Positions 36,239-55,931 of a stretch of DNA of 64,000 nucleotides are shown piece by piece. This stretch comes from Nitratireductor alexandrii. Its GTDB lineage: Bacteria > Pseudomonadota > Alphaproteobacteria > Rhizobiales > Rhizobiaceae. The notes under the pieces were generated by a model. The model saw only the letters and a list, made by a program, of their open reading frames with translations. It was not told the DNA's origin and ran no database searches. Both the position numbers and the translations under genes were made by a program. The stretch is taken from the NCBI RefSeq assembly GCF_004000215.1, contig NZ_RBVY01000006.1:71910-135909 (forward strand), in the 5' to 3' direction. The number at the start of each line of letters is the position of its first letter. Within the stretch, counting starts at the first letter, position 1.

Positions 36239-37414
36239 TCAGTTCGAGGTGGACGGATCGATACGGCCGACCTCAACCCATTTGTCGCCCACGATCTTGG
36301 AGATGATGATCAGCTCGCCGCCCTGGTGGTCGGGGCCGACATCGACGGGAACGTCGTTGATCACATCCTCGAACTTCACGCCTTCCATGGCCGTACGGAA
36401 ACTCTCCGACGTCAGGTCCGGACCTGCAGCCTCAAGCGCCATGACCAGCGTCTTGGCCGCTCCGTAGCCGAGCTGCGCGGCCGTGTCCGGCGCATTACCG
36501 GTATAGGCCTCGTAGCTTTCCGCCCACTCCTTGACCTCGGGAACATCGAGCCTGGCCTCGAAATCGACCCAGCCGGCCGCCGCGTAGTAGCCTTCCGTCA
36601 CTCCGCCGGGCACCTTGGCAACGGCGGTGTTGAAGCCTGCCGACGAACCGATGAAGGCGACATCGGTCCAGCCAAGCTTCTTGGCCGTGCCGAAAGCGAC
36701 GATGGTCTGACGCACGCCGAGCGCCGTGGCGACGATATCGCAGCCCGCATCCTTCAGCTTCTGGATCGAGCCGACGAAATCCTGCTCGTCGGGCTTGTGG
36801 GTGGTCTCGGCCGCCCAGGTCAGCCCCAGCTCCTCGGTCTTGCTCTTGGCGCCCTCCTCGATTTCCTTGCCGAAATCGGACGGGATGTACATTGCGCACA
36901 CTTCCTTGGCGTCGTCCTGCTTCACCAGGAACTCCACGCCCGCCCGGATCTGATCATAATAGGACGAGAAACCGGTATATTTATAGGCGATGTCGCCTTC
37001 GATCATCTGGCGCGCGGCCGTCAGCGGCGACACGTTGGCCACTTCTTTCGCTTCCATGATCTTGAAGCCGGCGATGTTGTGCGGCGTGCCCAGATTCAGC
37101 AGCATGGCGAACACCTTGTCGGAATTCACCAGCTTGTTGAAGTTCTGCACCGCCTTGGGCACCTGATAGCCGTGATCCTCGACCACGAAGCGGATCTTGC
37201 GTCCGTGAATTCCGCCCTGTTCGTTGACTTCGTCGAACACCTGCTGCGCCGCCTTGATGGCGCCGACATTGAAGGCGGCGAACACGCCGGACAAATCACC
37301 GTTGGAGCCGAGCACGATCTCGTCGTCGCTGACGCCCTGGGTGGCGTTGGCGGCCGAGGCCATCCCGGCCGCCAACGCGGCGGCGAGGATGGATCTGGTC
37401 AGTGTCTTCCTCAT
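36239..37414 (-). CDS. livK: ABC transporter substrate-binding protein, branched-chain amino acid type
   Basis: 391-residue periplasmic binding protein with a Sec signal peptide (cleavage near ANATQG). It has the family start SDDEIVLGSNGDLSGVFAAFNVGAIKAAQQVFDEVNEQGGIHGRKIRFVVEDHGYQ and a LivJ/K-like two-lobed fold. Such proteins in operons with an acyl-CoA ligase often bind aromatic or fatty acids or amides rather than leucine. GGAGGAAATACCC precedes the ATG. It is the last gene of the livHMGF-fadD-livK operon, 26 bases after fadD. Confidence 0.92.
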   Translation of the reverse strand: MRKTLTRSILAAALAAGMASAANATQGVSDDEIVLGSNGDLSGVFAAFNVGAIKAAQQVFDEVNEQGGIHGRKIRFVVEDHGYQVPKAVQNFNKLVNSDKVFAMLLNLGTPHNIAGFKIMEAKEVANVSPLTAARQMIEGDIAYKYTGFSSYYDQIRAGVEFLVKQDDAKEVCAMYIPSDFGKEIEEGAKSKTEELGLTWAAETTHKPDEQDFVGSIQKLKDAGCDIVATALGVRQTIVAFGTAKKLGWTDVAFIGSSAGFNTAVAKVPGGVTEGYYAAAGWVDFEARLDVPEVKEWAESYEAYTGNAPDTAAQLGYGAAKTLVMALEAAGPDLTSESFRTAMEGVKFEDVINDVPVDVGPDHQGGELIIISKIVGDKWVEVGRIDPSTSN

Positions 37415-37440: not shown

Positions 37441-39351
37441 TCAGGTTTCGGCATGGCCGGGCTGGCCATACATGTCGTCGATCAGTTTCTTGTGTTTTTG
37501 TTCGACGAAACTGCGCTTCAACTTCATCGTCGCGGTCAATTCCTCATCCTCCGCCGTCAGCAGCACGTCGATCAAGCGGAAATCCTTGATCTGCTCGACA
37601 CGGGCGAATTCGGCGTTCGTCTCCGCGACGATACCGGCGATGAGATCGCGCACTTCCTGCGCCGCGCACAGCGACTTGAAATCGTTGAACGGCACGCGCC
37701 TTTTCTGCGCGAATTTCTCGACATTCTCCTGATCGATCATGATCAGGCTGGTCAGATATTTGCGCTTGTCGCCGATGATCACCGCATCGGCGATGAAGGG
37801 CGAGAATTTCAGCCGGTTCTCGACCTCCGCCGGCGTAATGTTCTTGCCACCGGCGGTGATGATGATGTCCTTGACCCGGCCGGTGATCGTCAGGAACCCC
37901 TCATTGTCGAGGCGTCCGACATCACCGGTCTTGAGCCAGCCATCCTCGGTGACGGTCTCGGCGGTCTTGTCGGGCTTGTTCCAATATCCCTTGAAGACAT
38001 TGGCGCCGCGATATTGGATCTCGCCTTCGGGCGAGAGCCGGATTTCGCCGCCCGGCACCGGCTGGCCGACCGTGCCGGTCTTGTTGCGCTCGATCAGATT
38101 GACCGAGATCACACCGGCGCTTTCGGTCATCCCGTAGCCTTCCAAAACGGTGATGCCGACGGCCCGATACCATTTCAAAAGCGCCGGCGAGATCGGCGCC
38201 GCGCCTGTCGTCCCGCGCCGCAGCCGGTCGAACCCGAGCATGCGGCGCAGATTCTTGAGCACCAGGAAATCCCAGATCGCGTAGGAAAGCCGGTTCATAG
38301 CGGAAACCGTCTCACCGGCCTCCAGCGCCTCGGCGCGCGCCATACCGGACGCCAATGCGCGACGGAAGGCCCATTTGCCGAGCGGCGTGGCTTCGTTGGC
38401 CATAATGGTGACGCGGGAGTAGATTTTCTCCCACACGCGTGGCACCGCCGTGAACACATGCGGCGAAACCTCGCGCAGATTGTCGAACACGGTTTCGGGG
38501 CTCTCGGCGAAATTAACCGTCGAGCGCAGCCCGATCGGCGTGAAGACGCTGATCAGCCGTTCCAGGATATGGCACAACGGCAGGAAGCAGACCTGCTCGT
38601 CGCTTTCGTCGACCGGCAGGGTCAGCACCGCGCCAGCAATCGACACGACGATGTTCTCGTGGCTGATCATCGCGCCTTTCGGCGGGCCCGTGGTCCCGGA
38701 CGTGTAGACCAGGATCGCGGTGTCGTCGGGTTTCGAGGTAGCGATCTCTTCCTCGAAACGGTTCGGATTCTGTTTCAGGAAATCCCGCCCGAGCCGGTAA
38801 AGCTCGTCGAGGAAAATGACCCGGTCGTCGGAAAACCCATGCAGACCGTCGGCATCGTAGACGATGACCTTGGCAAGCCCCGGCATCTCGTCCTTGACCG
38901 ACAAGAACTTGTCGAGCTGCTCGTCATTTTCCACGAACAGGAAGCGGCTGTCGGAATCGTTGACCAAATATTGCAGTTGCTTGGCCGAATCGGTCGTGTA
39001 GACGCCTGACGCGATGCCACCCACCGACTGGACCGCAAGGTCGGTGTAGATCCATTCCTTGTTGTCCTCCGACAGGATCGAGACCACTTCGCCGCGTTTC
39101 AGCCCGAGCGAGAGCAGGCCCAGTCCGATCAGGCGGGCGTGTTCGTAAAAATCCTCCCACGTATAGGACAGCCAGATGCCGTACTGTTTTTCGCGATGCG
39201 CGACGCGGTTGCCCAGTTCCTGGCAGCGCTGACGAAACAGCTTCACCAGCGTGTCGCAACCGTCGAACACATAGGGACCCTTTGACAGGTCCGCATTGAA
39301 ACTGTGTCCGTTAACCGTCTGTTGCGGAGGCAGTTTTTCGGCAATCGTCAT
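37441..39351 (-). CDS. fadD: AMP-dependent long-chain acyl-CoA ligase
   Basis: 636-residue ANL-superfamily enzyme activating a carboxylic acid to its CoA thioester through an acyl adenylate. The phosphate loop is ILVYTSGTTGPPKGAMISHEN, the core motif TGDVGRLDNEGFLTITGRVKDIIITAGGKNITPAEVEN and a C-terminal Lys lies in the small domain. Length fits the long-chain (FACL4-like) group. It lies within the liv operon between livF and livK, so imported acid is probably activated at once. RBS GGGAGGAAGC. Confidence 0.92.
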   Translation of the reverse strand: MTIAEKLPPQQTVNGHSFNADLSKGPYVFDGCDTLVKLFRQRCQELGNRVAHREKQYGIWLSYTWEDFYEHARLIGLGLLSLGLKRGEVVSILSEDNKEWIYTDLAVQSVGGIASGVYTTDSAKQLQYLVNDSDSRFLFVENDEQLDKFLSVKDEMPGLAKVIVYDADGLHGFSDDRVIFLDELYRLGRDFLKQNPNRFEEEIATSKPDDTAILVYTSGTTGPPKGAMISHENIVVSIAGAVLTLPVDESDEQVCFLPLCHILERLISVFTPIGLRSTVNFAESPETVFDNLREVSPHVFTAVPRVWEKIYSRVTIMANEATPLGKWAFRRALASGMARAEALEAGETVSAMNRLSYAIWDFLVLKNLRRMLGFDRLRRGTTGAAPISPALLKWYRAVGITVLEGYGMTESAGVISVNLIERNKTGTVGQPVPGGEIRLSPEGEIQYRGANVFKGYWNKPDKTAETVTEDGWLKTGDVGRLDNEGFLTITGRVKDIIITAGGKNITPAEVENRLKFSPFIADAVIIGDKRKYLTSLIMIDQENVEKFAQKRRVPFNDFKSLCAAQEVRDLIAGIVAETNAEFARVEQIKDFRLIDVLLTAEDEELTATMKLKRSFVEQKHKKLIDDMYGQPGHAET

Positions 39352-39375: not shown

Positions 39376-40188
39376 TCAGCGCCAGGTCTTTTTCTGTTTC
39401 CAGCGCTTCTGGCCGCGCTGCGTCTCCTGCTGGACGCCGAGATAGAATTCCTGCACGTCCTTCGACTGCAGCAGGCGCTTGGCGTCGTCGGCCATGACGA
39501 TGCGCCCCAATTCCATCACGTAGCCGTAATCGGCCACCTCCAGGGCAACCTTGGCGTTCTGCTCGACAAGCAGCATCGTCACCTTCTGCTCGCGGTTGAG
39601 GCGGCGGATGATCTTGAAGATCTCCTTCACCAACAGCGGCGACAAGCCGAGACTCGGTTCGTCGAGCAGCATCAGGGTCGGACGGGCCATCAGGCCGCGG
39701 CCGATCGCCAGCATCTGCTGCTGGCCGCCCGACAGCGTGCCGGCGGCCTGTCGGCGCCGCTCGGCCAGGATCGGAAAATAGGAAAACACCATCTCCTCGT
39801 CGCGGTGCACCTCGCCCGTGTCGTTGCGGGTGAAGGCCCCCATCCTCAGATTTTCCTCGACGGTGAGCAGCGGGAAAACCTCGCGCCCTTCCGGCACGTG
39901 GACGATACCCTTGCGCACGATGCTGTCGGGGCTGGCGCCGGCGATGTCCTCGCCGCGGTAGACGATCTGCCCCTTCTCCGGGTCCATGACGCCCGAAATG
40001 GTCTTCATCAGCGTCGTCTTGCCGGCACCGTTGGCGCCGAGCACCGTCGCGATCTGGCCCTCGCGGACCTCGAGGCTGCAACCGCGGATCGCCATGATCG
40101 GCCCGTAATAGCTTTCCAGGTTGCGCACCGTCAGCAAGGCCTGTGGCGCCTGGTCGGGATGTGCCTGTGCTGCCGTGGCGCCGCTCAT
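39376..40188 (-). CDS. livF: ABC transporter ATP-binding protein (LivF)
   Basis: 270-residue ABC ATPase with Walker A GANGAGKTT, signature LSGGQQQMLAIGRGLM and Walker B LMLLDEPSLGLSP; the C-terminal VALEVADYGYVMELGRIVMADDAKRLL is typical of LivF. It carries a slightly longer N-terminus (to TAAQAHPDQAPQ) than usual. ATG 40188 overlaps the livG stop by four bases. It works with LivG on the LivHM channel. Confidence 0.94.
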   Translation of the reverse strand: MSGATAAQAHPDQAPQALLTVRNLESYYGPIMAIRGCSLEVREGQIATVLGANGAGKTTLMKTISGVMDPEKGQIVYRGEDIAGASPDSIVRKGIVHVPEGREVFPLLTVEENLRMGAFTRNDTGEVHRDEEMVFSYFPILAERRRQAAGTLSGGQQQMLAIGRGLMARPTLMLLDEPSLGLSPLLVKEIFKIIRRLNREQKVTMLLVEQNAKVALEVADYGYVMELGRIVMADDAKRLLQSKDVQEFYLGVQQETQRGQKRWKQKKTWR

Positions 40189-40973
40189 GCGACCTCCCTT
40201 TCCGCCGCCTCATCGGCCGAGCCGATATAGGCCTCGATCACCTTTGGATCGTTCTGGACTTCCGCCGGCGTGCCAAGGGCCAGCATCATGCCATCGGCCA
40301 GTGCAAGCACGCGGTCGCAAACCGAGGAAACGAGATGCATGTCGTGCTCGACCATCAAGACAGTGATGCCCATCTGAGTCTTGATGTCCTCGATCCAGAA
40401 GGCGACGTCCTGGGTCTCCTCAACCGAAAGACCGGAGGCCGGCTCGTCGAGCAGCAGCAATTTCGGTTCGATGGCGAGCGCCCGCCCCATCTCGACCACC
40501 TTGCGCACCCCGTAGGGCAGGCCGGCGATCATCTTCTCGCGATAGGGCTGCAGGTCGAGAAAATCGATCACCTTCTCCACAGCCGTGCGGTGACGCCGCT
40601 CCTCTTCGCGTACGAAGGGCGTGAACAGCAGTTCGGAGACGAAATTGGAATGGCGGTGGCGATGCCGACCGACGAGCAGGTTCTGCAGCACGGTGGCCTG
40701 CTCGAACAGCTCGATGTTCTGGAAGGTGCGCGCAATGCCCAGCCCGGCGATCTCGTGCGGCTGGCGCGTTAGGATGCTCTTACCGTCGAAGCGGATGTCG
40801 CCCTCGGCCGGCTCGTAGAAGCGCGAGATCAGGTTGAAGATCGTCGACTTGCCGGCGCCGTTGGGCCCCACCAGCGCGAAAACCTCTCCCGCCTCGACCG
40901 AAAACGAGACCTGATTGACCGCCACCACGCCGCCGAAGCGAAGCGTGACATTGTCGATTTCAAGCAGGCTCAT
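40185..40973 (-). CDS. livG: ABC transporter ATP-binding protein (LivG)
   Basis: 262-residue ABC ATPase with Walker A GPNGAGKST, Walker B LLLLDEPASGL and the LivG-specific insertion FVREEERRHRTAVEKVIDFLDLQPYR. The signature segment reads LPYGVRKVVEMGRAL, lacking the usual SGGQ, as commonly seen in this subfamily. The start overlaps the livM stop by four bases and the stop overlaps livF, giving tight coupling. Confidence 0.93.
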   Translation of the reverse strand: MSLLEIDNVTLRFGGVVAVNQVSFSVEAGEVFALVGPNGAGKSTIFNLISRFYEPAEGDIRFDGKSILTRQPHEIAGLGIARTFQNIELFEQATVLQNLLVGRHRHRHSNFVSELLFTPFVREEERRHRTAVEKVIDFLDLQPYREKMIAGLPYGVRKVVEMGRALAIEPKLLLLDEPASGLSVEETQDVAFWIEDIKTQMGITVLMVEHDMHLVSSVCDRVLALADGMMLALGTPAEVQNDPKVIEAYIGSADEAAEREVA

Positions 40974-42070
40974 CGCATGCGCTCCGTCTTGAGATAGCTC
41001 TTCTGGCGCCTGAACATGTCGCGGCGATAGAACGGAAACAGCTCGAAATAGGTTCTGATCTTAACCCAGCGGCCGTAAATGCCCATCGGTTCGAACAGGA
41101 TGAAACCGATCAGGATGGCGCCGAAGATCGCCGCTTCCAGCCCCGGTATCGCGATCGAGCCGCTGCCGATCAGGCCGGCGACGAAATCGCGTCCCATCGC
41201 GATCGCCTGCGGCATCAACGCCACGACGACAGCACCGAAAAAGGCGCCGTGGATGGAACCGAGCCCGCCGATGACGATCATCATCAGAAGCTGGATCGAG
41301 ATGATGATGTTGAAGGTCTCGTTGTTGAAGATGCCGGCGAAATGGCCCATCAGGGCCCCGGCCAGGCCGGTGATCGCCGTCGATATGCCGAAGGAAACCG
41401 CCTTGGTGCGGGCGATGTTGACCCCCATCGCCTGGGCCGACACTTCCGAATCGCGCACCGCGGCGAAGGAACGGCCGAGCGGCGAGCGCAACAGGTTGCG
41501 ATAGGCCAGCACGACCAGGATCGTGACGATCAGCACCAGCCAGTAGAACCGCTCCGGGTTGCCGTAACGATCGATCTCCAGTCCGAAAATGCTGATCGTC
41601 GGCGCGAACAGGCCGACCACGCCGTTGGTCAGCGGCTCGGCGATGACGATCAAATCGTCGGTCAAGATGGAGATCGCCAAGGTGCCGATGGCGAGATAGA
41701 TGCCGTGCAGCTTGGTGGTGGGGATGGCGATCAGCACGCCGGCCAGCCCGGCGATCACGCCGGCCAGCGGAAAGGACAGGATGAAGGGCAGGCCCAGCCT
41801 TTCCTGCAACAGCACATTGGCATAGCAGCCCACCGCGAGGAAGGCCGCATGGCCGAGGCTCGCCTGACCGGTCTGGCCGACCAGGATCATCAGCCCCATG
41901 CCGGCGATCGCCCAGATCAAAAGATTGGTCATCTCGCCGAGCCAGAACGTGTCGAAAAACAACGGCAACAGGATCGCCAGCGCGGCCAGGAGCAGATACC
42001 ACGCCGCCTGGACGCCATGCCGGAAATAATTGATGTCGGCGTCGTAGGATGTCTTGAAGACGATTCTCAT
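40970..42070 (-). CDS. livM: ABC transporter permease (LivM)
   Basis: 366-residue integral membrane protein with about nine helices. LivM features are GQTGQASLGHAAFLAVGCYANVLLQERLGLPF and SPLGRSFAAVRDSEVSAQAMGVNIARTKAVSFGISTAITGLAGALMGHFAGIFNNE (EAA-like loop for the ATPases). The C-terminal cytoplasmic tail has about 40 residues. It follows livH by seven bases. Confidence 0.94.
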   Translation of the reverse strand: MRIVFKTSYDADINYFRHGVQAAWYLLLAALAILLPLFFDTFWLGEMTNLLIWAIAGMGLMILVGQTGQASLGHAAFLAVGCYANVLLQERLGLPFILSFPLAGVIAGLAGVLIAIPTTKLHGIYLAIGTLAISILTDDLIVIAEPLTNGVVGLFAPTISIFGLEIDRYGNPERFYWLVLIVTILVVLAYRNLLRSPLGRSFAAVRDSEVSAQAMGVNIARTKAVSFGISTAITGLAGALMGHFAGIFNNETFNIIISIQLLMMIVIGGLGSIHGAFFGAVVVALMPQAIAMGRDFVAGLIGSGSIAIPGLEAAIFGAILIGFILFEPMGIYGRWVKIRTYFELFPFYRRDMFRRQKSYLKTERMR

Positions 42071-42077
42071 GGCCGCG

Positions 42078-42953
42078 CTACACCTTCTTCCGGTGGACCT
42101 GGGCGAGAATGCCGTGCGGTCGGAAGATCAGGATCAGGAACAGCAGCAGGTAAGGCATGATCTGCGAGTAGCCAGCCGCGATGTAATAGGACGAGAACGG
42201 CTCGATCAGCCCGACGATCAGCCCGCCGAGCAGCGCACCAGGCAGCGAGCCGAACCCGCCGATCACCGCCGCGGCGAAGGCCTTGATGCCGAGTAGGCCG
42301 ATCGAGGGATCGATCGACCCCTTCGAGGCGAACAGGATGCCGGCGATGGCGGCGACCGCGCCGGCGAGCGCCCAGATCAGCGAATGAACGCGCATCACCG
42401 GTATGCCCATATAATAGGCCGCGAGCTGGTTCTGGGAGGCGGCCTGCATGGCGACGCCGAGCTTGGTGCGGTTGAAGTAGAAATAGAGCGCGACGGTGAG
42501 GATCAGCGTGACGGCGATGATCATCACCTCGTCGAGGCCGAGCACCAGCCCGCCGAAGCGCACGTCCTTGCCGGCGATCGGCGATTCCAGCGAGATCGGC
42601 TCATGGCCCCAGATCAGCCCGGCGAAAAAGCGCAGCACGAAGCCGAGCGCGATGGTGAGGATGACGATCGCGATCTGCGACTGGCCGAACATGCGCCTGA
42701 GCACGAACAGGTCGAGCAGATAGCCGAAGGCGCCCATCACCACGATCGCGATCGGCACCGACAGCCAAAACGGCCAGCCCAGAAATTCCTGGTTGGTCAG
42801 GCCGAGCGCGATGAAGGCACCGAGCATCATGAAGTCGCCCTGGGCGAAGTTCACGGCTTCGGTCGCCTTGTAGATCAGGACGAACCCCAACGCGATCAGG
42901 CCGTAGACGCACCCATTGGCGAGGCCGCTTACAACAAGCTGCAAGACGTCCAA
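42078..42953 (-). CDS. livH: ABC transporter permease (LivH)
   Basis: 291-residue membrane permease with about eight helices, starting VSGLANGCVYGLIALGFVLIYKATEAVNFAQGDFMMLGAF and containing TKLGVAMQAASQNQLAAYYMGIPVMRVHSLIWALAGAVAAIAGI, the loop contacting the ATPases. The start codon appears to be TTG 42953, preceded by GGAGGAG at eight bases. First gene of the transporter operon, 98 bases after the preceding oxidoreductase gene on the same strand. Confidence 0.93.
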   Translation of the reverse strand: MDVLQLVVSGLANGCVYGLIALGFVLIYKATEAVNFAQGDFMMLGAFIALGLTNQEFLGWPFWLSVPIAIVVMGAFGYLLDLFVLRRMFGQSQIAIVILTIALGFVLRFFAGLIWGHEPISLESPIAGKDVRFGGLVLGLDEVMIIAVTLILTVALYFYFNRTKLGVAMQAASQNQLAAYYMGIPVMRVHSLIWALAGAVAAIAGILFASKGSIDPSIGLLGIKAFAAAVIGGFGSLPGALLGGLIVGLIEPFSSYYIAAGYSQIMPYLLLFLILIFRPHGILAQVHRKKV

Positions 42954-43051: not shown

Positions 43052-44092
43052 TCAGGGCTCGATAAACACCTTGCCGTTCGGTTTGGCGAGCTCGCCCGGC
43101 ACACGGTCGATCGCCTCGTCAAGCGGCACGATCGCCGTCACATCGGTCGACCAACGTCCGTCTGCGAAGCGTTTTTGCGCCTCCATCACCACCGCGACCC
43201 TGCGTTCCGGCGCGGCGTTGCGCAACCAGTCCGTCAGCCAGAAGCCTTCGATGCGCTTGCGCATGAAGATCAATTGACCGGGCTCAGGGATCGGCGTCGT
43301 CTGCGTGTCGAGCCGACCATAAACGATCCAGCGCGCCCGTTTCGGCATTGCGTTGAAGATCTGGCCGGCGAGCGGCCCCGTCACCGCGTCGAGCAGGATC
43401 CGCGGTTGCTCCTGCTTCATCACCGTCTTCAAAGTCGTCTCGAAATCGGGTGCGGAGGCGTTGAGCACATGTGCGGCGCCGGCCTTCTCGAGCAGCGGGG
43501 TCTGGTCGTCGCGGCGCACGATGGCGATCGGCCGATAACCGTCCTCGGCCGCCACGCCCATGATCAGCTTGCACAACTGGCTCGCCGCTGCCGTCAGCAC
43601 GAAGGCCTTTTCGCCTTCCTCCTTGACGATCCCGAACATGGCGAGCGCGGTCAGCGGATTGACGATCATCGCCGCGCCGTCGACGTCGTTGACGCCGTCG
43701 ATCAGCGGAATGCAGGCTGCCGCCTCGGCGACCGCGTATTCGGCCCACGCGCCCCAGTTCGACAGCCCAGTGGGAAAGGCGACGCGCGCGCCCACAAGCT
43801 TCTGGGCGGCGGCGTCCTCACCGGCCGCCACCACCTCGCCGACCCCTTCGAACCCGGCCGGCTGGCCCTTGTGGCGTGGCTGGCCATAGAGCCCCTTGAC
43901 GAACATGACATCCGACGGGTTGATCGCCGCCGTTCGGACCTTCACCAGCACCTGGCTGGCGCCGGGCATGGGCACGCCGATCTCGCCCAGTTCGACGAAA
44001 GAGCCCATATCGGCGAGCGAAGCGTCCGACGACTCGGCCGAATAGCCATCATGCTTCAAAAGAAGCGCCTTCATGGTGGGCGGTATCGTCAT
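43052..44092 (-). CDS. Zinc-free MDR oxidoreductase (quinone oxidoreductase-like), first copy
   Basis: 346-residue medium-chain dehydrogenase. The GroES-like domain (MPGASQVLVKVRTAAINPSDVMFVKGLYGQPRHKGQPAGFEGVGEVVAAG) lacks the catalytic-zinc Cys and structural-zinc Cys cluster. The nucleotide-binding domain has AFVLTAAASQLCKLIMG, an altered version of the usual glycine-rich A-x-G-x-x-G motif. It would reduce an enone or quinone with NAD(P)H. ATG 44092 overlaps the second oxidoreductase gene by four bases. Part of the tetR-acyl-CoA dehydrogenase operon, so an enoyl or keto intermediate is the likely substrate. Confidence 0.85.
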   Translation of the reverse strand: MTIPPTMKALLLKHDGYSAESSDASLADMGSFVELGEIGVPMPGASQVLVKVRTAAINPSDVMFVKGLYGQPRHKGQPAGFEGVGEVVAAGEDAAAQKLVGARVAFPTGLSNWGAWAEYAVAEAAACIPLIDGVNDVDGAAMIVNPLTALAMFGIVKEEGEKAFVLTAAASQLCKLIMGVAAEDGYRPIAIVRRDDQTPLLEKAGAAHVLNASAPDFETTLKTVMKQEQPRILLDAVTGPLAGQIFNAMPKRARWIVYGRLDTQTTPIPEPGQLIFMRKRIEGFWLTDWLRNAAPERRVAVVMEAQKRFADGRWSTDVTAIVPLDEAIDRVPGELAKPNGKVFIEP

Positions 44093-45072
44093 GCAATATC
44101 CTTCTCGGGTTTGAGAATCAGCTTGCCGGCTGCGCCGCGGTTCATCACCCGCGCCAGCACCGCCGGTGCGTCGGCAAGCCGGTACTCGCCCTCGATCACC
44201 GGCTTGAGCTTGCCGTCCAGATACCAGCCGACCAGTTCGCGCATGTTGGCGGCATAAGTGGCGGGCTCCTTGCGCGTGAACGCGCCCCAGAAGACGCCGA
44301 CCACGCTGAACCCCTTGACCAGGGCCAGATTGACGGGAAATTTCGGGATCGTGCCGGAGGCGAAGCCGATCACCAACAGCCGGCCGCCCCAACCCATGGC
44401 GCGGGCCAGCGCGTCGAAGGCCTCGCCGCCGACCGGGTCATAGCCGACATCGACCCCCTTGCCGCCTGTCGCCTCCTTCAACGCCTCTTTCAGATTGTCG
44501 TAGCCGAGCACGACATCGGCACCGGCCTCGCCCGCGATCCGGCGTTTTTCGGCGCTGGAGGCGACGGCGATCACCCGCGCGCCCATCGCCTTGCCGATCT
44601 GGACGGCCGCTAGCCCGGTCGCACCGGCCGCGCCGAGCACGCACAGGGTCTCGCCCGCAGCCAGCTTGCCGCGCTGCTTGAGCGCGTGGTGCGACGTCCC
44701 GAAGCCGCACAGCAGCGCGCAGGCATCGGCGTTGCCCATCTCATCGGGCAGGGCCATCACCGTGTCCTCGTGGGCGGCGACCCTTTCGGCATAGGCGCCG
44801 AGCGACGAGACGGACGCGACCCGATCGCCGACCTTGACGCGGCTCACCGCATCGCCGACCGCCACCACCGTGCCGGCCACTTCCATGCCCGGCACGAACG
44901 GCACTGGCGGCTTCATCTGATAAAGCCCCTGCACGAGCAGCCCGTCGGGATAGTTGACGCCGATCGCCTCGGCCTCGATCACCACCATGTGGCCGGTCGC
45001 CTCCGGTTCCGGCCAGTCGGCATATTCCAGCCGGTCGAGCGGGGCGAAATCGCGGGCAACGATCGCTTTCAT
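44089..45072 (-). CDS. NADPH:quinone oxidoreductase family protein, second copy
   Basis: 327-residue zinc-free MDR enzyme with the standard motifs MEVAGTVVAVGDAVSRVKVGDRVA, LAAGETLCVLGAAGATGLAAVQIGKAMGARVIAVASS and YDPVGGEAFDALARAMGWGGRLLVIGFASG. It resembles QorA/NQO-like proteins that reduce alpha,beta-unsaturated carbonyls. It is only about 30% alike by eye to the next gene. It follows the acyl-CoA dehydrogenase gene by seven bases and is translationally coupled to the downstream oxidoreductase. Confidence 0.9.
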   Translation of the reverse strand: MKAIVARDFAPLDRLEYADWPEPEATGHMVVIEAEAIGVNYPDGLLVQGLYQMKPPVPFVPGMEVAGTVVAVGDAVSRVKVGDRVASVSSLGAYAERVAAHEDTVMALPDEMGNADACALLCGFGTSHHALKQRGKLAAGETLCVLGAAGATGLAAVQIGKAMGARVIAVASSAEKRRIAGEAGADVVLGYDNLKEALKEATGGKGVDVGYDPVGGEAFDALARAMGWGGRLLVIGFASGTIPKFPVNLALVKGFSVVGVFWGAFTRKEPATYAANMRELVGWYLDGKLKPVIEGEYRLADAPAVLARVMNRGAAGKLILKPEKDIA

Positions 45073-45079
45073 GACGCCG

Positions 45080-46318
45080 TCACACCTTTTCCTGCGTGTA
45101 TTTTTTCAACTCGACCCGCGCCACCTGCCGGCGGTGCACCGCGTCGGGTCCGTCGGCCAGACGCAGCGTACGCAGATGCGTCCACGAGCGCGCGAGCGGC
45201 GTATCCTGGCTGATGCCCTGGCCGCCGAACATCTGGATCGCCTCGTCGGTCACCTTCAGCGCCACCCTCGGCGCGACCACCTTGATCTGGCTGATCCAGG
45301 GCGCGGCGGCACGCGGGTCGCCCTGATCCATCATCCAGGCGGCCTTGAGGCACAAGAGCCGCGCCATCTCGATCTCCATCCGGCATTCGGCGATGATGTC
45401 GTAGTTGGCGCCGAGTTGGGCCAGCGGCTTGCCGAAGGCCTCGCGCCGCATGGAGCGCCGGCACATCTGCTCCAACGCCATCTCGGCCTGGCCGATGGCG
45501 CGCATGCAATGGTGGATGCGGCCGGGTCCGAGCCGGCCCTGGGCGATCTCGAAGCCGCGCCCCTCGCCGAGAATGAGATTGTCGGCCGGAACCCGCACAT
45601 TCTCGAATTTGAGATGGAGATGGCCGTGCGGCGCGTCGTCCTCGCCATAGACATGCATCGCCCTGAGCTTGGTGATGCCGGGCGTGTCGGCCGGCACCAG
45701 GATCATGGAATGGCGCTGATGTTTCGGCGCGTCCTCGGCGGTCTTGACCATCACCACATAGATCGCGCAACGCGGATCGCCAGCACCCGACGACCACCAT
45801 TTCTCGCCGTTGAGCACGTAGTCGGCGCCGTCCCGCTCGCAGCGCATGGCGATGTTGGTCGCGTCCGAGGACGCGACGTCGGGCTCGGTCATCAAATAGG
45901 CGGAGCGGATGCGGCCCTCCAGGAGCGGCGCGAGCCATGCGCGCTTGTGCGCCTCGGAGCCGTAGCGCTCCAAAACCTCCATATTGCCGGTATCGGGCGC
46001 CGAGCAGTTGAACGTCTCCGCACCCAGATGGGCCTTGCCCATCTCCTCGGCCAGATAGGCGTATTCCACCGTCGTCAGCCCGTAGCCGCGGCTGGAATCG
46101 GTCAGCCAGAAATTCCACAGGCCGCGCTCGCGCGCCCTGGATTTGAGACCTTCCAGGATTTCGGTCTGGCGCGCCGTGTAGGCCCAGCGATCGCCGTCCT
46201 TGCCGATTTCGGCCAGAAATTCCTCGTCGAGCGGCATGATCTCCTCGCGGACCATGCGCGCGACCTTGTCGTGGATCGGCTTCAGCCGCTCGGTCATGCC
46301 GAGATCCATGGTGCTCAT
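45080..46318 (-). CDS. Acyl-CoA dehydrogenase, ACAD10/11-like
   Basis: 412-residue FAD-dependent acyl-CoA dehydrogenase. FAD and substrate motifs are AYLMTEPDVASSDATNIAMRCERDGADYVLNGEKWWSSGAGDPRC, GRLGPGRIHHCMRAIGQAEMALEQM and IQMFGGQGISQDTPLARSWTHLRTLRLADGPDAVHRRQVAR. The LRLADGPDAVH end is characteristic of the ACAD10/ACAD11 branch, which in animals and bacteria works on phosphorylated 4-hydroxyacyl-CoA. ATG 46318 overlaps the tetR stop. A kinase of the matching type lies across the divergent promoter at 48423. Confidence 0.92.
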   Translation of the reverse strand: MSTMDLGMTERLKPIHDKVARMVREEIMPLDEEFLAEIGKDGDRWAYTARQTEILEGLKSRARERGLWNFWLTDSSRGYGLTTVEYAYLAEEMGKAHLGAETFNCSAPDTGNMEVLERYGSEAHKRAWLAPLLEGRIRSAYLMTEPDVASSDATNIAMRCERDGADYVLNGEKWWSSGAGDPRCAIYVVMVKTAEDAPKHQRHSMILVPADTPGITKLRAMHVYGEDDAPHGHLHLKFENVRVPADNLILGEGRGFEIAQGRLGPGRIHHCMRAIGQAEMALEQMCRRSMRREAFGKPLAQLGANYDIIAECRMEIEMARLLCLKAAWMMDQGDPRAAAPWISQIKVVAPRVALKVTDEAIQMFGGQGISQDTPLARSWTHLRTLRLADGPDAVHRRQVARVELKKYTQEKV

Positions 46319-47004
46319 GTCGGGTTTTCCTGTGTTCCTCGCAGCCCGCCCTGGGCAAAATCCACGACCTGGCGGGCGATGGCCTCGATATCGGAGCGGG
46401 TTTCGCCGACACGCGGCGAGTACCAGAAGATAGGCGAATTGAGCGTCATGAACATCAGCTGATTGGCGATGCTCATGTCGTCGAACCGGAATACCCCCTC
46501 CTCGCGCCCCTGCAGCAGGGTCTCGCGAAACAGCTTGCCATAGGTGCTGCGATATTCCAGCAACTCGTTGAAAACCTCGCGCTGGGCTGGCGTTGTGGCG
46601 CCGCGCAGATGCATTTCGACCCCGATCCACACCGCACGCTGGAACGGCTTGGTGTCGATCATCTGGACCACGTGCACCATCGCCATCTTGCGCCAGCGCG
46701 GCAATGCCGGGCCCGGCAAGTGCCGGTAGGGCTCGACGGCCTGATAGTTCATGTCCATGCCGGCGCGGAAAACCTCGGCGAACAGATCCGCCTTGGACGG
46801 GAAATGGTGATAGATCCGACCCTTCGTGGCGCCGAGGCTGCGTGCCACGTCGTCGATCGAGGTGCTGGCGTAGCCGCGTTCCATGAAGCAGGTCGCCGCG
46901 GCGCGCAAAATGTCGGCACGCGAGCTGTCGACAACTTGTTCGCGAACGCCAAGCGACATCGCCGCCACGACCTCCCTGTCCGCCCTGTTATCGGTTCGGC
47001 TCAT
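46315..47004 (-). CDS. TetR/AcrR family transcriptional regulator
   Basis: 229-residue repressor. The HTH is ILRAAATCFMERGYASTSIDDVARSLGATKGRIYHHFPSKADLFAEVF; the C-terminal ligand domain (about 75-220) is TetR_C-like, with GVEMHLRGATTPAQREVFNELLEYRSTYGKLFRETL. ATG 47004 is preferred; frames open to 47043 would cover the palindromic operator, while ATG 46959 is also possible. It is the first gene of the tetR-acad-oxidoreductase operon and probably controls both divergent operons through the site at 47039-47058. The ligand is likely an acyl-CoA. Confidence 0.9.
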   Translation of the reverse strand: MSRTDNRADREVVAAMSLGVREQVVDSSRADILRAAATCFMERGYASTSIDDVARSLGATKGRIYHHFPSKADLFAEVFRAGMDMNYQAVEPYRHLPGPALPRWRKMAMVHVVQMIDTKPFQRAVWIGVEMHLRGATTPAQREVFNELLEYRSTYGKLFRETLLQGREEGVFRFDDMSIANQLMFMTLNSPIFWYSPRVGETRSDIEAIARQVVDFAQGGLRGTQENPT

Positions 47005-47038
47005 GGCCGATGGGCTCTTTACTGGCAGGGCAATGATG

Positions 47039-47058
47039 AACATACTACCGAGTATGTT
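47039..47058. promoter_or_regulatory. TetR-type operator between the divergent acyl-CoA operons
   Basis: AACATACTACCGAGTATGTT is a perfect inverted repeat with eight-base arms and a four-base spacer, 42-61 bases before the SDR gene and 35-54 bases before the TetR start. Such ATACT/AGTAT palindromes are typical of TetR repressors of fatty or acyl-CoA metabolism. Confidence 0.7.
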
Positions 47059-47099
47059 GTCAATGCGGACTCGCGTGGACGGGCCGCGAGGGGAGGAAG

Positions 47100-47921
47100 A
47101 TGGCTTATCTCGACGAACTGTTTTCGGTTGCCGGCAAGCGCGCCCTGATCACCGGCGCGGCGAGCGGCATCGGCCGCATGGCGGCGACCGCGCTGGTGCG
47201 CGCGGGCGCCGAAGTCTATATCGCGTCGCGCCGGCCGGAGGAATGCGAGAAGGTGGCCGGCGAACTGAACGCGATCGGCGCGGCGGGCAAGGCACAAGGC
47301 TTCGCCGGCGACGTCGGCAGCGAAGACGGGGTGGACGCGCTTGCCGAGGCGGTGCGGGCGCGCACCGACCAGTTGCACATCCTGATCAACAATGCCGGGC
47401 TGAGCTGGGGGGAGCCGCTGGACACCTTTCCCTATCATGCCTGGGCGCGGGTCTTAAACGTGAACGTGACCGGTCTGTTTCACCTGACCCGCACCCTTTT
47501 GCCGCTGCTCGAAAACGCGGCACGTGACGACGATCCGGCCCGCATCATCAATCTGGGGTCGGTGATGGGCACCCAGCCGATCGCCGACGGCGCCTATTCC
47601 TACACCGCCTCCAAGGCCGCCGTGCATCATCTGACGCGGACGCTGGCCTGCGAACTCGCCGGGCGGCGTATTACCGTCAACGCCTTCGCCCCCGGTCCTT
47701 TCCAGAGCCGCATGACGGCCTTCGCCACCGACACCGACGAAAAGGCCGCCAGGGTCGGAAGCCGCGTGCCGATGGGAAGAATCGGCAACCCGGATGACAT
47801 TGCCGGCGCAACGCTTTATCTGTGTGCAAAGGCTGGGAGTTATGTCACCGGCGCGATCCTGCCGATTGACGGTGGGCAGTCCGTTCAGCATGGCATGTCT
47901 CTGTTCAAGGAACCGGATTGA
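47100..47921 (+). CDS. SDR family oxidoreductase
   Basis: 273-residue short-chain dehydrogenase. Cofactor motif TGAASGIGRMAA, NNAGLSW, catalytic Ser in INLGSVMG, YSYTASKAA (Tyr-x3-Lys) and GRRITVNAFAPGPFQSRM are all present. The Arg in IASRRPEE suggests NADP(H). It leads an operon with a MaoC hydratase, an APH-like kinase and another SDR. It follows the TetR operator, with GGGAGGAAG before the ATG. Confidence 0.93.
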   Translation: MAYLDELFSVAGKRALITGAASGIGRMAATALVRAGAEVYIASRRPEECEKVAGELNAIGAAGKAQGFAGDVGSEDGVDALAEAVRARTDQLHILINNAGLSWGEPLDTFPYHAWARVLNVNVTGLFHLTRTLLPLLENAARDDDPARIINLGSVMGTQPIADGAYSYTASKAAVHHLTRTLACELAGRRITVNAFAPGPFQSRMTAFATDTDEKAARVGSRVPMGRIGNPDDIAGATLYLCAKAGSYVTGAILPIDGGQSVQHGMSLFKEPD

Positions 47922-47931
47922 TACGCTACTG

Positions 47932-48426
47932 ATGAGCAAGGAACCGCTGGAACCCGTCGACACCGATCATCTGACCGCCGCGATCGGGACCGAGATCGGC
48001 ATTTCGCCCTGGCGAACGGTCTCGCAACGCATGATCGACCAGTTCGCCGACGCGACCGACGATCACCAGTTCATCCACGTCGATCCCGAGCGGGCGGCGA
48101 GCGAGACGCCCTATGGCGGCACCATCGCGCACGGCTTTCTGTCGTTGTCGCTGCTGTCCGCGCTCGCCTACGAGACGCTTCCCCCGCTCAAGAACACCGT
48201 GATCGGCATCAATTACGGCTTCGATCAGGTCCGCTTCAAGGCGCCGGTCAAGGCCGGCGCGCGCGTGCGGGCGCGGTTTTTCCTCGCCAATGCCAATATC
48301 CGCCCCTCCGGTTGGGTCGAGATCGCCTATGACGTGACGATCGAGATCGAAAACGCGAGGAAACCGGCCCTGACGGCGCGCTGGCTCACCCTTTCCCAGC
48401 TTCAACGACTGGACAAAGCATCGTGA
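47932..48426 (+). CDS. MaoC family enoyl-CoA hydratase
   Basis: 164-residue hot-dog-fold hydratase. The active site shows as [38 protein letters not shown]: Asp and His of the R-hydratase motif are present. It likely adds water to enoyl-CoA to yield 3-hydroxyacyl-CoA. It lies 10 bases after the SDR; the kinase gene start overlaps its stop (GTGA). It would act after the acyl-CoA dehydrogenase of the divergent operon. Confidence 0.92.
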
Positions 48427-49457
48427 CCGACCCGAACCTTCTCGATCCCGCCACGCTCACGCCCTATCTCGAAACGCACGTTCCCGGTTTCAGGGGGCTC
48501 GGGGAGATCGAGAAGTTCCAGACCGGACAGTCGAATCCGACCTATTTGATCAATGCCAGCTCCGGCCGCTACGTGCTGCGAGCCAAGCCGCCTGGCAAGC
48601 TGCTGAAATCGGCGCACCAGGTCGACCGCGAATTCCGGGTCATGGCCGCGCTGGGCAAGGCCGGATTCCCGGTTCCGAAAGTGCTTCACTTGGCGCCGGA
48701 AGATTCCCCGATCGGGCGCATGTTCTACGTGATGGGGTTCATCGAGGGCCGGATTTTCTGGGATCCGGCCTTGCCGGAAGCCGCGGATAACGGGGAGCGC
48801 ACGGCGATCTACGATGCGATGAACGCCACGCTCGCAGCACTCCACGACATCGATATCGAAAAGGCCGGGCTTGCAGATTTCGGCCGTCCCGGCAGCTATT
48901 TCGAGCGCCAGTTCGGGCGCTGGAGCAGCCAGTATCGGGCATCGGCGACCGAAACCGTGGAACCGATGGAGCGGCTGATCGCCTGGCTCGGCGAGGCCCA
49001 GCCCGAGGATGACGGCCAGGTCTCGCTCGTGCATGGCGACTTCCGGCTCGACAATATGATGTTCGCGCCGGAGCGCCCGGTCGTGCTTGCCGTGCTGGAC
49101 TGGGAGCTTTCCACCCTCGGCCATCCGCTGGCCGACCTCGCCTATCAATGCATGCAGTGGCGCCTGCCGCACCGTTCCGGCTTTCGCGGCCTGGGCGGCA
49201 TCGACCGTGCCGCTCTCGGAATCCCGAGCGAGGAGGACTATGTCGCGTGCTATTGCGAGCACCGCGGCATCGGCGCGATCGACAATTGGACCTATTACCT
49301 GGCCTTTTCCTTCTTCCGGCTGGCCGCGATCTGTCAGGGCGTCTACAAACGCTCGCTCGACGGCAATGCCTCGAACCCGGAAAAGGCACGCATGTATGGC
49401 GAAGCCGTGCGGCTGTTGGCCGATCTCGCGATGAAGCGGATCGACGGAGGAAAATGA
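48423..49457 (+). CDS. APH-family phosphotransferase, ACAD10/LvaA-like kinase
   Basis: 344-residue protein kinase-like phosphotransferase. N-lobe [46 protein letters not shown], catalytic loop [15 protein letters not shown] and metal-binding [22 protein letters not shown] are intact. This branch includes the kinase domains of ACAD10/ACAD11 and the bacterial LvaA, which phosphorylate 4-hydroxyacyl-CoA. The start is GTG 48423, overlapping the MaoC stop. Its partner dehydrogenase would be the ACAD gene at 45080. No antibiotic resistance function is suggested by context. Confidence 0.9.
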
Positions 49458-50233
49458 TGGCGCGGTTTTCCGATCAGGTCGTGCTCGTCACCGGCGCCAC
49501 AGGCGGGTTCGGCCGCCGCACCGCCGAACGCCTGGCCGAAGACGGCGCCACGCTGGTGCTGTCGGATGTCGACGAAGCCAACCTCATCGACTTCGCCGGC
49601 TCGCTCTCCTGCCAGACAGCCGTTCTGGCGGGCGACATTGCCGAGGAAAGCCTGTCGGAACGATTGGTGGCGCTCGCCGTCGAGCGCTTCGGCCGGCTCG
49701 ACATCGCCATCAACAATGCCGGCATCGCCCAAAGCTATGTCAAGCTTGCGAGCGTGCCGAGCGAGGAAGCGCGGCGCATCATCGACATTGACCTGATGGG
49801 CGTGTTTTTCGCCATGAAGCACCAATTGCCGCAGATGGAACGACAGCGACGCGCCACGGGCCGGGCTGGTGCGATCGTCAACATCGCCTCGGTCGCCGGC
49901 GTCGCCGGCGCCCCGCGCCTTTCCGTCTATGCCGCTGCCAAGCACGGCGTTGTCGGTCTCACCCGCTCGGGCGCTGCCGAATATGCCGCCAAGGGCATCC
50001 GCGTCAACGCGGTCTGCCCCTCCTATGCCCGCACCAACATGGTGCAGGATTTCGTCAGGATGACCGGGCTCGGCGAGGACGAGGCGATCGAGCAACTGAC
50101 CCGGGGCGTGCCGATGAAGCGCGTCGCGGAGATCGACGAGGTGGTGGAGGTGATCCTGTTTGCCGCCGATCCGAAAAACAGCTTCATGACCGGCCACACG
50201 CTGTCCGTCGACGGCGGCATCGCCGCGTTGTGA
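49457..50233 (+). CDS. SDR family oxidoreductase, second copy
   Basis: 258-residue short-chain dehydrogenase. Motifs are TGATGGFGRRTAERLAEDGA, INNAGIAQ, VNIASVAGVAGAP (Ser) and YAAAKHGVVGL (Tyr-x3-Lys). The Asp in VLSDVDEAN suggests NAD preference. Two adjacent ATG codons at 49454 and 49457 are possible; GGAGG lies three and six bases before them, so 49457 fits better. It overlaps the kinase stop by one base. It ends the + strand operon and probably oxidises the 3-hydroxyacyl-CoA or 4-hydroxy intermediate. Confidence 0.92.
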   Translation: MARFSDQVVLVTGATGGFGRRTAERLAEDGATLVLSDVDEANLIDFAGSLSCQTAVLAGDIAEESLSERLVALAVERFGRLDIAINNAGIAQSYVKLASVPSEEARRIIDIDLMGVFFAMKHQLPQMERQRRATGRAGAIVNIASVAGVAGAPRLSVYAAAKHGVVGLTRSGAAEYAAKGIRVNAVCPSYARTNMVQDFVRMTGLGEDEAIEQLTRGVPMKRVAEIDEVVEVILFAADPKNSFMTGHTLSVDGGIAAL

Positions 50234-50691: not shown

Positions 50692-51600
50692 TCAGCCGCG
50701 CAAGTGGGCGAGATAGCGGGCGTGAAAGCGGCGATAGCCGTTTTCCGTCACCTGGAGGTTGCCACGGGCCAGGGCGTGGAATTCCGGCAACTTGTGGAAC
50801 GGCACCATGGGATAGGCGTGGTGCTCGGCATGATAGGGCATGTTCCAGGCGATCCAGCGCACCAGGCGGTTGGTGTAGGTGGTGCGGGTGTTTTCCAGCA
50901 TGTTGGCCACGAACGGGCAGCGCCCGTGCTCGGCGAGCAGGTAAAGCCGCAGAAAGGGCTGGCCGACCACAGCCGGAATCACCCAGATAAACAGGAGGAC
51001 GTCCGACCCGGCGGCAATCGACAGCCCGGCCAGCAAGCCATAGAGCGCGAGCGTAACGCGCGCCTCGCGCACCACCCGGCCCCTGGCATTGCCGGGCACG
51101 AAATCGCCGTCGACGCGGCTGGCCGCGTTGCGCGCCAGGGTGATCGCCAGCGACCACCACAGCGGCAGACCCGACACATGCAGCCCATACCCGCCTAGGC
51201 TTTCGGGTTTCGGCGCGGCAAGCTCGGGGTCGCGTCTCGGGTCCTGCGTGTGGCGATGATGGGCGAAATGGAAATAGCGAAACCAGGTGGCCGGGATCGC
51301 GATCAGGAAGCCGCAAATCTGCGCGACCCGCTGGTTGAGCCAGCCGGTGCGAAAGGCGGTGCCGTGGATGGTTTCGTGCTCGAGCGTGAACAGGAACACG
51401 ATCAGGATGCCCTGGATCGGCACCAGCAGCGGCCACAACGGCGCCCGCACCGCAATCAGCAGGCCGAGACCTGCGATCGACCCGAAATGCACACAAAGCC
51501 GCACGATCCCCGGCCGGTCGGATTTTTCGGTGAGCGCGCGACGTTGCTCGCGCGACAGCGCGGCGAGCAAGTGTCGATGGTCGAGGCGGGCGTCGTGCAT
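50692..51600 (-). CDS. Fatty acid desaturase family membrane protein
   Basis: 302-residue membrane protein with the three histidine boxes of the desaturase/hydroxylase superfamily: HETIHG, HFAHHRHTQDP and HAEHHAYPMVP, with about four membrane helices between. Such di-iron enzymes desaturate or hydroxylate alkyl groups. It starts 26 bases after soxG on the same strand, and so likely belongs to the sarcosine oxidase operon, a context that favours an N-methyl or amine substrate over a fatty acid. ATG 51600 chosen; the open frame to 51723 lies within soxG. Substrate not determined. Confidence 0.88.
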   Translation of the reverse strand: MHDARLDHRHLLAALSREQRRALTEKSDRPGIVRLCVHFGSIAGLGLLIAVRAPLWPLLVPIQGILIVFLFTLEHETIHGTAFRTGWLNQRVAQICGFLIAIPATWFRYFHFAHHRHTQDPRRDPELAAPKPESLGGYGLHVSGLPLWWSLAITLARNAASRVDGDFVPGNARGRVVREARVTLALYGLLAGLSIAAGSDVLLFIWVIPAVVGQPFLRLYLLAEHGRCPFVANMLENTRTTYTNRLVRWIAWNMPYHAEHHAYPMVPFHKLPEFHALARGNLQVTENGYRRFHARYLAHLRG

Positions 51601-51626
51601 GAGACCGGTCCGTTCGACGGCCAAGC

Positions 51627-52190
51627 CTACACGTCGCGCGCCGCCTCGGCCAGAAACGCGTAGGCGTACTCGGCGAAGGAACGCCACACCTCGACGTGGA
51701 AGGTCTGTTCGCCGGTGCGCCACAGCACGATCTCGACCTTACCCAGAACCGTGCGCGAGCAAGCCCCGACCGGAAAGGCGGCAAGCGACAAATCCTGCGG
51801 GCAGCCGGCGGCAAGACAGGCTTCCGCGCCTTCGCCGGCGACCAGGATCGCGACATTGCGATGCGACACGTCGACGGCCGAATGGAGCGCCTTCGCCCGG
51901 CCGGCGGCGGCCGGCAGATCGGCGCCGTCATCGTCGATCACCAACCATTCGTCCGGCCCCAGCCACAATGCGACCCGGCCGCCCGATTTCGCCCGTGCCG
52001 ATGTCTTGGGCTTGCGCGGAACACTGACGCCGAGCGCCCGCGAGACCGAGTTGAGAGCGTCCTCGCCCGCGCGCAGCGCAAGCCGCGCCGCCGGCGGTCC
52101 AGGCGTGACACTGACGTGCTCGCGGGTCGTCGACAGCCCGGCCAGCCTTTCGCGGCGCACCGCCGGTTCCTTGCTCGCCGCGTCAGCCAT
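51627..52190 (-). CDS. soxG: Sarcosine oxidase subunit gamma
   Basis: 187-residue gamma subunit of heterotetrameric sarcosine oxidase. It shows the SoxG features ARLALRAGEDALNSVSRALGV, RVALWLGPDEWLVIDD, VDVSHRNVAILVAGEGAEACLAAGCPQDLSLAAFPVGACSRTVLGKVEIVLWR and SFAEYAYAFLAEA. It overlaps the soxA end by eight bases; ATG 52190 is the best start. It is required for assembly of the tetramer with SoxA, B and D. Confidence 0.92.
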   Translation of the reverse strand: MADAASKEPAVRRERLAGLSTTREHVSVTPGPPAARLALRAGEDALNSVSRALGVSVPRKPKTSARAKSGGRVALWLGPDEWLVIDDDGADLPAAAGRAKALHSAVDVSHRNVAILVAGEGAEACLAAGCPQDLSLAAFPVGACSRTVLGKVEIVLWRTGEQTFHVEVWRSFAEYAYAFLAEAARDV

Positions 52191-55493: not shown

Positions 55494-55506
55494 CGCTTGC
55501 CGATCC

Positions 55507-55929: not shown

Positions 55930-55931
55930 GG

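Follow-up and report, generated by a model that had tools for sequence, protein, structure and literature searches.

Two divergent operons in a 64,000-nucleotide stretch of the Nitratireductor alexandrii genome (contig NZ_RBVY01000006.1, positions 71,910 to 135,909; hereafter the window, whose coordinates are used throughout) encode an APH-family kinase, an acyl-CoA dehydrogenase (ACAD) of the ACAD10/11 type, and a TetR-family regulator. We analyzed this island computationally, comparing homology, diagnostic residues, gene layout, and a palindrome that links the island to a second operon in the 4.87-Mb, 40-contig genome. On this basis, we consider it probable that a single regulon delivers 4-hydroxyacyl-CoAs to Pim beta-oxidation, with gamma-lactones or dicarboxylates as their possible origin. 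The two enzymes add a new member to an established family; the new part is the predicted TetR regulon that joins the pair to a pcaD-pimFABCD operon. Sequence comparison supports both the enzyme assignments and the regulon well. The features on which the argument turns are these:

45080..46318, minus strand: ACAD10/11-LvaC-type acyl-CoA dehydrogenase (start MSTMDLGM, inner ATG at 46309; Pfam Acyl-CoA_dh_1/M/N)
46315..47043, minus strand: TetR-family regulator, first gene of the left operon (Pfam TetR_N 65 bits, TetR_C_24; alternative start at 47004)
47040..47057, no strand: putative operator palindrome ACATACTACCGAGTATGT, an 18-bp perfect inverted repeat between the operons
48423..49457, plus strand: ACAD10/11-LvaA-type kinase of the APH family, presumed 4-hydroxyacyl-CoA kinase (Pfam APH 172 bits)

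A kinase and dehydrogenase pair of the ACAD10/11 type

The top PDB match of the kinase is 3dxp (E=1.4e-102), which is titled a putative acyl-CoA dehydrogenase but is a kinase by alignment. The kinase domain of mouse ACAD11 (8v3v, E=4.5e-81) follows, and is its best match of known function. For the dehydrogenase, the nearest structures are 4hr3 and the ACAD domain of ACAD11 (8v3u, E=7.5e-121), compared with 1.7e-44 for the best conventional ACAD. In near whole-domain alignments to mouse ACAD11, 142 of 326 aligned residues are identical in the kinase and 197 of 387 in the ACAD.

The residues assigned to catalysis are also present. PMC12440821 identifies D753 of ACAD11 as the base, assigns binding of the 4-phosphate to R626, H634, and R637, and gives D220, N225, and R176 roles in the kinase domain. 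Alignment places R258, R263, H266, R269, and D385 of the island ACAD (counted on window:45083-46306) opposite mouse R626, R631, H634, R637, and D753, and D206, N211, and R162 of the kinase opposite D220, N225, and R176. An R69-E70 pair is likewise retained in the kinase; the paper gives the Arg beside the alphaC Glu as R86, whereas by a count along the PDB chain this Arg-Glu pair would be 84-85 in native numbering. The phospho-substrate residues are kept in all 29 of the best-scoring ACADs from a class-wide survey and in all 64 ACADs recovered from 80 loci of named relatives (80 of 328 were taken), with D385 present in 63 and a gap in one; all 80 kinases from these loci retain the diagnostic kinase residues. 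Because these sequence sets were picked by similarity, such universal retention is what one would expect of family members. The conventional dehydrogenases PimC and PimD of this genome have none of R258, H266, R269, and D385; PimC retains R263, which the same paper describes as a general ACAD residue. A strict regular expression for the ACAD matched 63 of the 80 named loci and 21 of 30 loci from the class search, and alignment was used instead.

The class survey covered 289 Alphaproteobacteria genomes (ACAD at E<=1e-95, kinase at E<=1e-45). Each gene was found in 104 genomes: 98 carry both, 6 the ACAD only, 6 the kinase only, and 179 neither. Since both proteins belong to large superfamilies and the kinase has a weak NCBIfam APH(3') match, we weighed whether the APH gene encodes a kinase for aminoglycoside resistance, or an unrelated one acting on small molecules, and the ACAD gene an ordinary dehydrogenase. 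That match scores 34 bits where the cut-off is 205, on which an antibiotic-resistance kinase was rejected, and the ACAD11-specific residues and similarity, together with the strong co-occurrence of the two genes, make the whole reading very improbable. A defense gene was also rejected, as PADLOC gave no match for the three proteins tried.

The original prediction, read from the DNA alone, had assigned the pair to ACAD10/11 (LvaA/LvaC) from an LRLADGPDAVH motif in the ACAD and a quoted kinase motif. Both motifs occur in the respective open reading frames, and similarity, diagnostic residues, and co-occurrence now support the assignment strongly. All sequence features tested place the pair in the ACAD10/11-LvaA/LvaC family, and a 4-hydroxyacyl-CoA function is likely. 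In PMC12440821 and PMC11342911, close homologues convert 4-hydroxyacyl-CoA and ATP to 4-phosphoacyl-CoA, from which the ACAD releases phosphate to give 2-enoyl-CoA; for this the FAD must be redox-active, probably to hold a hydride transiently. By analogy, the island kinase would phosphorylate the 4-hydroxyl of a 4-hydroxyacyl-CoA, and the ACAD11-type flavoenzyme, with D385 as base and R258/H266/R269 as phosphate clamp, would eliminate phosphate to leave the 2-enoyl-CoA with no net redox change.

A palindrome shared with a pcaD-pimFABCD operon

The TetR gene had been overlooked in the original prediction, which had the ACAD and kinase genes share a promoter directly. This arrangement does not hold: the intergenic region separates the TetR gene from SDR1, a short-chain dehydrogenase/reductase (SDR) gene, and the ACAD and kinase genes are second and third in their respective operons. 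The nearest solved structure to the regulator is DarR (8svd, E=1.9e-34), and the palindrome overlaps the first ATG of its gene. One further copy, identical over 20 bases, is present in the genome, and a whole-genome search found no third site within 2 mismatches of a 14-base pattern or 3 of a 20-base pattern. The second copy lies 23 bases ahead of the likely start codon of pcaD, which is followed by genes for a FadJ-like multifunctional enzyme, a PimA-like ligase, a thiolase, PimC, and a PimD-like dehydrogenase, giving the order pcaD-pimFABCD. PimC (695 bits) and the thiolase (637.6 bits) exceed their curated cut-offs, and by sequence this operon is pim-like, with pimF-A-B-C-D in order. When the pim loci or regions of six relatives were compared, PimA went undetected in L257 and L261.

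The association extends across the family. In 151 Rhizobiaceae genomes (TetR gene at E<=1e-40, palindrome with at most one mismatch), the palindrome is present in 43 of 43 genomes with the TetR gene and in 6 of 108 without it. A chance control, the reversed pattern, matched 12 of the 151 genomes, so the 6 of 108 is near chance level. Of the 49 genomes with a site, 40 were examined, and their 72 sites were sorted by location: 35 are at the island, 26 at pcaD/pimF, and 2 adjacent to the TetR gene only. Both main sites occur in 23 of these genomes, the island site alone in 11, and the pim site alone in 3. In genome G117, it is the TetR gene that stands first, followed by pimF, pimB, pimC, and pimD relatives at 46-60% identity; a second palindrome is between the ACAD and kinase genes. 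Because the same kind of regulator gene thus resides in either operon, the island and the pim operon are strongly linked. The island-encoded TetR repressor would bind the palindrome between its own gene and SDR1, and also the sole other genomic copy, ahead of pcaD-pimFABCD, so as to switch the island, the PcaD-family lactonase, the CoA ligases, and the pimeloyl-type beta-oxidation operon jointly. We found no description of this regulon in the open-licence literature, a scope that leaves its unpublished status unproven.

A number of observations weigh against the favored reading. The Fisher value for the association of TetR gene and palindrome, 1.3e-31, ignores shared ancestry; 9 of the 72 sites fall outside both loci and away from any TetR gene, and in 3 of the 40 genomes neither locus carries a site. 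The palindrome occurs in 28 of the 80 named loci. Of the 33 Mesorhizobium-titled loci, 32 have neither an adjacent TetR gene nor the palindrome, so the island presumably functions under other control too. PimA (636.6 bits against 705.6) and PimD (532 against 652.7) both fall under their equivalog cut-offs. Within the 1.5-kb ACAD flanks, the kinase was found at 5 of the 30 class-search loci, with the window locus itself a miss; kinase and ACAD genes are frequently non-adjacent. Finally, the genome encodes a second complete kinase and ACAD pair, described below, and the substrate range is therefore possibly split.

The PcaD-family lactonase

What the regulon serves depends in part on PcaD. This protein scores 339 bits against the TIGR02427 cut-off of 255.85 and is the genome's sole copy over it. 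The protocatechuate cluster (L172:5388-9251, G000:C36) consists of pcaQ, pcaC, pcaH, pcaG, and pcaB, with no pcaD; these names come from reading the sequences, with Pfam Dioxygenase_C for the two dioxygenase genes. We compared 22 regulon genomes selected for PcaD at the palindrome, so that pcaD is first after the palindrome and immediately upstream of pimF in all 22 by selection; their pcaD-less pca clusters were not so selected. In 21 of the 22, pcaH is present, in each case with pcaC alongside, and none of the 23 pcaH loci in these 21 genomes showed a PcaD within its 1.5-kb flanks. Among 25 TetR-negative genomes, 22 have PcaD, and the best copy adjoins pcaC in 19 of those 22. This comparison indicates that the position of pcaD shifts together with the regulon. 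In a PcaD tree, the 22 regulon copies form one clade with low node support (0.41), so we confine the claim to the location of pcaD and make none about the number of moves. Six lower-scoring PcaD paralogues occur in 4 of the 22 regulon genomes; two narrowly exceed the cut-off, and all six likewise reside outside pca clusters.

Two readings of PcaD remain: it may open gamma-lactones for the 4-hydroxy pathway, perhaps in addition to its former job, or it may be the old enol-lactonase newly controlled. The position of the second palindrome, ahead of the genes for a PcaD-family lactonase and for Pim-type beta-oxidation, lends indirect support to the gamma-hydroxy acids or lactones that the original prediction had put forward as substrates. 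This support is weakened because PcaD is possibly just the relocated enol-lactonase of protocatechuate breakdown. Taken further, the latter view would make the TetR regulon a general fatty-acid/dicarboxylate beta-oxidation regulon, analogous to FadP/PsrA, with a side-entry for 4-hydroxyacyl-CoAs; PcaD would be an ordinary 3-oxoadipate enol-lactonase that has relocated, and lactones would be no substrate. Enzymes and regulon are the same in this account, which differs solely on PcaD and lactones. It draws on the fact that pimFABCD is a complete beta-oxidation set, on PcaD being well over the equivalog cut-off as the single such copy, on the placement of the best PcaD beside pcaC in TetR-negative genomes, and on the 21 of 22 regulon genomes with pcaC and pcaH but no adjacent pcaD, in which PcaD may serve the beta-ketoadipate pathway only. 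It fits less well with genome G025 (97% complete), which has a palindrome-linked PcaD and no pcaH at E<=1e-40 and, as one case, favors a PcaD role beyond protocatechuate. Moreover, the place between palindrome and pimF in the 22 selected genomes is an odd site for a protocatechuate gene. We regard the general beta-oxidation regulon as a strong contender, a little short of an even chance.

Layout and conservation of the island

The operons diverge at 47043-47100. The left operon (minus strand, 47043 to 36239) carries genes for TetR, ACAD, two medium-chain dehydrogenase/reductases (MDR1 and MDR2), livH, livM, livG, livF, a CoA ligase, and livK; it probably runs on beyond 43052 through livHMGF and the ligase to livK at 36239. 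The right operon (plus strand, 47100 to 50233) carries SDR1, MaoC, kinase, and SDR2. The largest gap in the left operon is 98 bp, between MDR2 and livH; ligase and livK are 26 bp apart and livF and ligase 24 bp, and overlaps of a few bases occur at TetR/ACAD, MDR1/MDR2, livM/livG, livG/livF, MaoC/kinase, and kinase/SDR2. The remaining features are:

36239..37414, minus strand: livK-like periplasmic substrate-binding protein, presumed last gene of the left operon (Pfam Peripla_BP_6 207.6 bits)
37441..39351, minus strand: AMP-binding acyl-CoA ligase, long-chain type (Pfam AMP-binding 235 bits)
39376..42953, minus strand: livF, livG, livM, and livH, branched-chain-amino-acid-type ABC importer (family assigned by reading the sequence; open reading frames 39376-40188, 40185-40973, 40970-42070, and 42078-42953)
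43052..44092, minus strand: MDR2 (Pfam ADH_N, ADH_zinc_N; its start overlaps the MDR1 stop)
44089..45072, minus strand: MDR1, quinone-oxidoreductase/PIG3-like (TIGR02824 201.8 bits, under the cut-off of 296.8; PDB 4eye E=8.4e-64; Pfam ADH_N/ADH_zinc_N)
47100..47921, plus strand: SDR1, short-chain reductase, first gene of the right operon (Pfam adh_short family; PDB 2b4q E=2.4e-64, next match 2.5e-40)
47932..48426, plus strand: MaoC-type hydratase (Pfam MaoC_dehydratas 85 bits; PDB 2c2i, Rv0130, E=1.8e-34)
49454..50233, plus strand: SDR2, short-chain dehydrogenase (Pfam adh_short family, adh_short_C2 189 bits)

The gene families named in the original prediction agree with these Pfam assignments. 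The best NCBIfam match of the ligase is FadD11 at 400 bits, under the cut-off of 950; MDR2, like MDR1, is under the PIG3 cut-off, and SDR2 has no NCBIfam match over its cut-off among the 25 matches listed. The structure nearest to SDR1, 2b4q, is titled a rhamnolipids biosynthesis 3-oxoacyl-ACP reductase and is, we take it, RhlG. Outside the operons, a membrane-fusion protein and an RND-type efflux pump adjoin livK (window 31745-36061), and a fatty-acid-desaturase-like open reading frame adjoins sarcosine-oxidase-type subunits (window 50692-57185), all named by reading the sequence.

Of the named relatives listed, Nitratireductor arenosus is closest; its kinase is 91% identical, and its genes follow the same order as far as the locus extends. 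Among the named loci, 60 are full length, and presence was called by identity thresholds. SDR1 is found in 59, ACAD in 51, divergent ACAD and SDR1 genes in 51, MaoC in 50, and SDR2 and MDR2 in 46 each, compared with 18 each for TetR and MDR1 and 15 each for livH and livG; the CoA ligase, which is situated beyond most of the 60 loci, was left out of these counts. We therefore take SDR1-MaoC-kinase-SDR2 with a divergent ACAD gene as the core and the importer and TetR as lineage features. The importer that had been proposed as part of the route is indeed present, and several relatives retain its gene order, but it falls, with TetR and MDR1, outside the widely conserved core (15-18 of 60 loci). 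In genome G014, a palindrome site (L137) adjoins a TetR gene and livM/livH relatives, which suggests that the importer is a direct member of the regulon in that lineage. A variant arrangement, in which SDR1-kinase-SDR2 and the palindrome have no MaoC, ACAD, or TetR match alongside, occurs in Hoeflea, Flavimaribacter, Pararhizobium, Nitratireductor sp. XY-223, and metagenome-assembled Rhizobiaceae genomes (L066, L067, L069, L074, L075, L082, L085, L086).

A second pair in the genome

The second complete pair is outside the window (L092:7547-9894, G000:C4). Its ACAD and kinase are 50% and 47% identical to those of the island and have all the diagnostic residues, and nearby are relatives of the liv importer (29-43% identical) and of an MDR (44%). 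The genome-wide search found no palindrome at this pair. Normal growth of a kinase mutant, once proposed as grounds for refuting the assignment, would be unsafe as such because of this second pair. Divergent from it is a Y_phosphatase3 gene of the tyrosine-phosphatase family (L092:6770-7543; Pfam, 178 bits). ACAD10 has a HAD domain, and the available text of PMC6692424 places a histidine-phosphatase-family gene in the Pseudomonas citronellolis lva cluster. Phosphatase-like partners may thus recur beside such pairs; none of the 30 class-search loci had a phosphatase gene beside the ACAD.

Comparison with known systems

Mammalian ACAD10 and ACAD11, as presented in the available parts of PMC12440821 and PMC11342911, are homologous to the island proteins nearly end to end in both domains, with the phospho-acyl-CoA residues kept. 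They differ in being one fused chain, whereas the island has two separate proteins from divergent operons, no HAD domain, and a setting in a bacterial regulon. Bacterial homologues can substitute for ACAD10 domains, and a published figure puts LvaA at 29% identity to ACAD10/11 (both from the available text of PMC11342911), compared with about 44% between the island kinase and mouse ACAD11.

The Pseudomonas lva operon, like the island, has a separate kinase and ACAD along with an SDR and a CoA ligase. These shared kinds of parts (PMC6692424, as available) raise the question of whether the island is a levulinate operon, in which an SDR would reduce levulinyl-CoA to 4-hydroxyvaleryl-CoA and the pair would proceed as in Pseudomonas putida. 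The island, however, has no LvaB-sized gene, and no gap between its genes could hold one, the largest being the 98 bp given above; the genome was not searched with the LvaB sequence. Its regulator is of the TetR family in place of the sigma54-type LvaR (PMC6692424, as available), and MaoC, MDRs, an importer, and a co-regulated pim operon are additional. Absence of LvaB alone is not decisive, because the P. citronellolis cluster, per the same available text, also lacks lvaB. The linkage to dicarboxylate-type beta-oxidation and the similarity of SDR1 to 2b4q speak further against levulinate. The two island SDRs are at most candidates for an LvaD-type reductase of levulinyl-CoA. A plain lva operon was rejected for want of an LvaB gap and of LvaR, and the levulinate reading in general we judge improbable.

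The second operon has the F-A-B-C-D order of Rhodopseudomonas palustris pimFABCDE and a PimC over the curated cut-off; it differs in the two sub-threshold Pim proteins and in being preceded by pcaD and a palindrome common to the island. TetR-family control of several beta-oxidation operons recalls FadP/PsrA, compared here by description, but the available part of PMC5343134 reports FadP as unique to betaproteobacteria and makes no mention there of a kinase/ACAD pair or pcaD. PcaQ-controlled pcaDCHGB has a PcaD of the same family; here pcaD is in a TetR regulon and the pca cluster is without it.

A proposed pathway and its implications

The scheme that follows is our inference from these comparisons; it covers the catalytic steps, binding of DNA and repression by TetR, the effector, the substrate, and what the SDRs, MDRs, and importer do. 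Downstream of the pair, MaoC and an SDR would hydrate and oxidize the product; upstream, other SDR/MDR steps may yield 4-hydroxyacyl-CoA from 4-oxo or 2-enoyl precursors, with the MDRs possibly reducing the enoyl precursors. An (R)-3-hydroxy route may run through MaoC, nearest to Rv0130, and SDR1, nearest to 2b4q, with the (S)-route running through FadJ/PimF. An acyl-CoA or lactone of the pathway would release the TetR repressor. The food would most likely be a medium-chain 4-hydroxy mono- or dicarboxylate or its gamma-lactone.

We tentatively put forward a more specific possibility, that a Rhizobiaceae lineage built a dedicated pathway for gamma-lactones or 4-hydroxy-(di)carboxylates under one TetR switch, with pcaD, taken over from the beta-ketoadipate cluster, supplying the lactonase. 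Lactonase, CoA ligase, 4-hydroxyl kinase, phosphate-eliminating ACAD, and Pim beta-oxidation would then act in that order, and the lactonase may also serve protocatechuate.

ACAD10/11-type pairs are common, as the 98 of 289 genomes in the class survey indicate. To our knowledge, the natural substrates of bacterial pairs beyond levulinate are poorly known. The link to pim beta-oxidation and a PcaD-family lactonase provides a concrete, testable pathway, for which the regulator, the palindrome, and the small two-locus regulon are direct handles; the effector that releases TetR would reveal the food. The comparison of regulon and non-regulon genomes further suggests that a pathway gene, pcaD, has changed both operon and regulator within one bacterial family.

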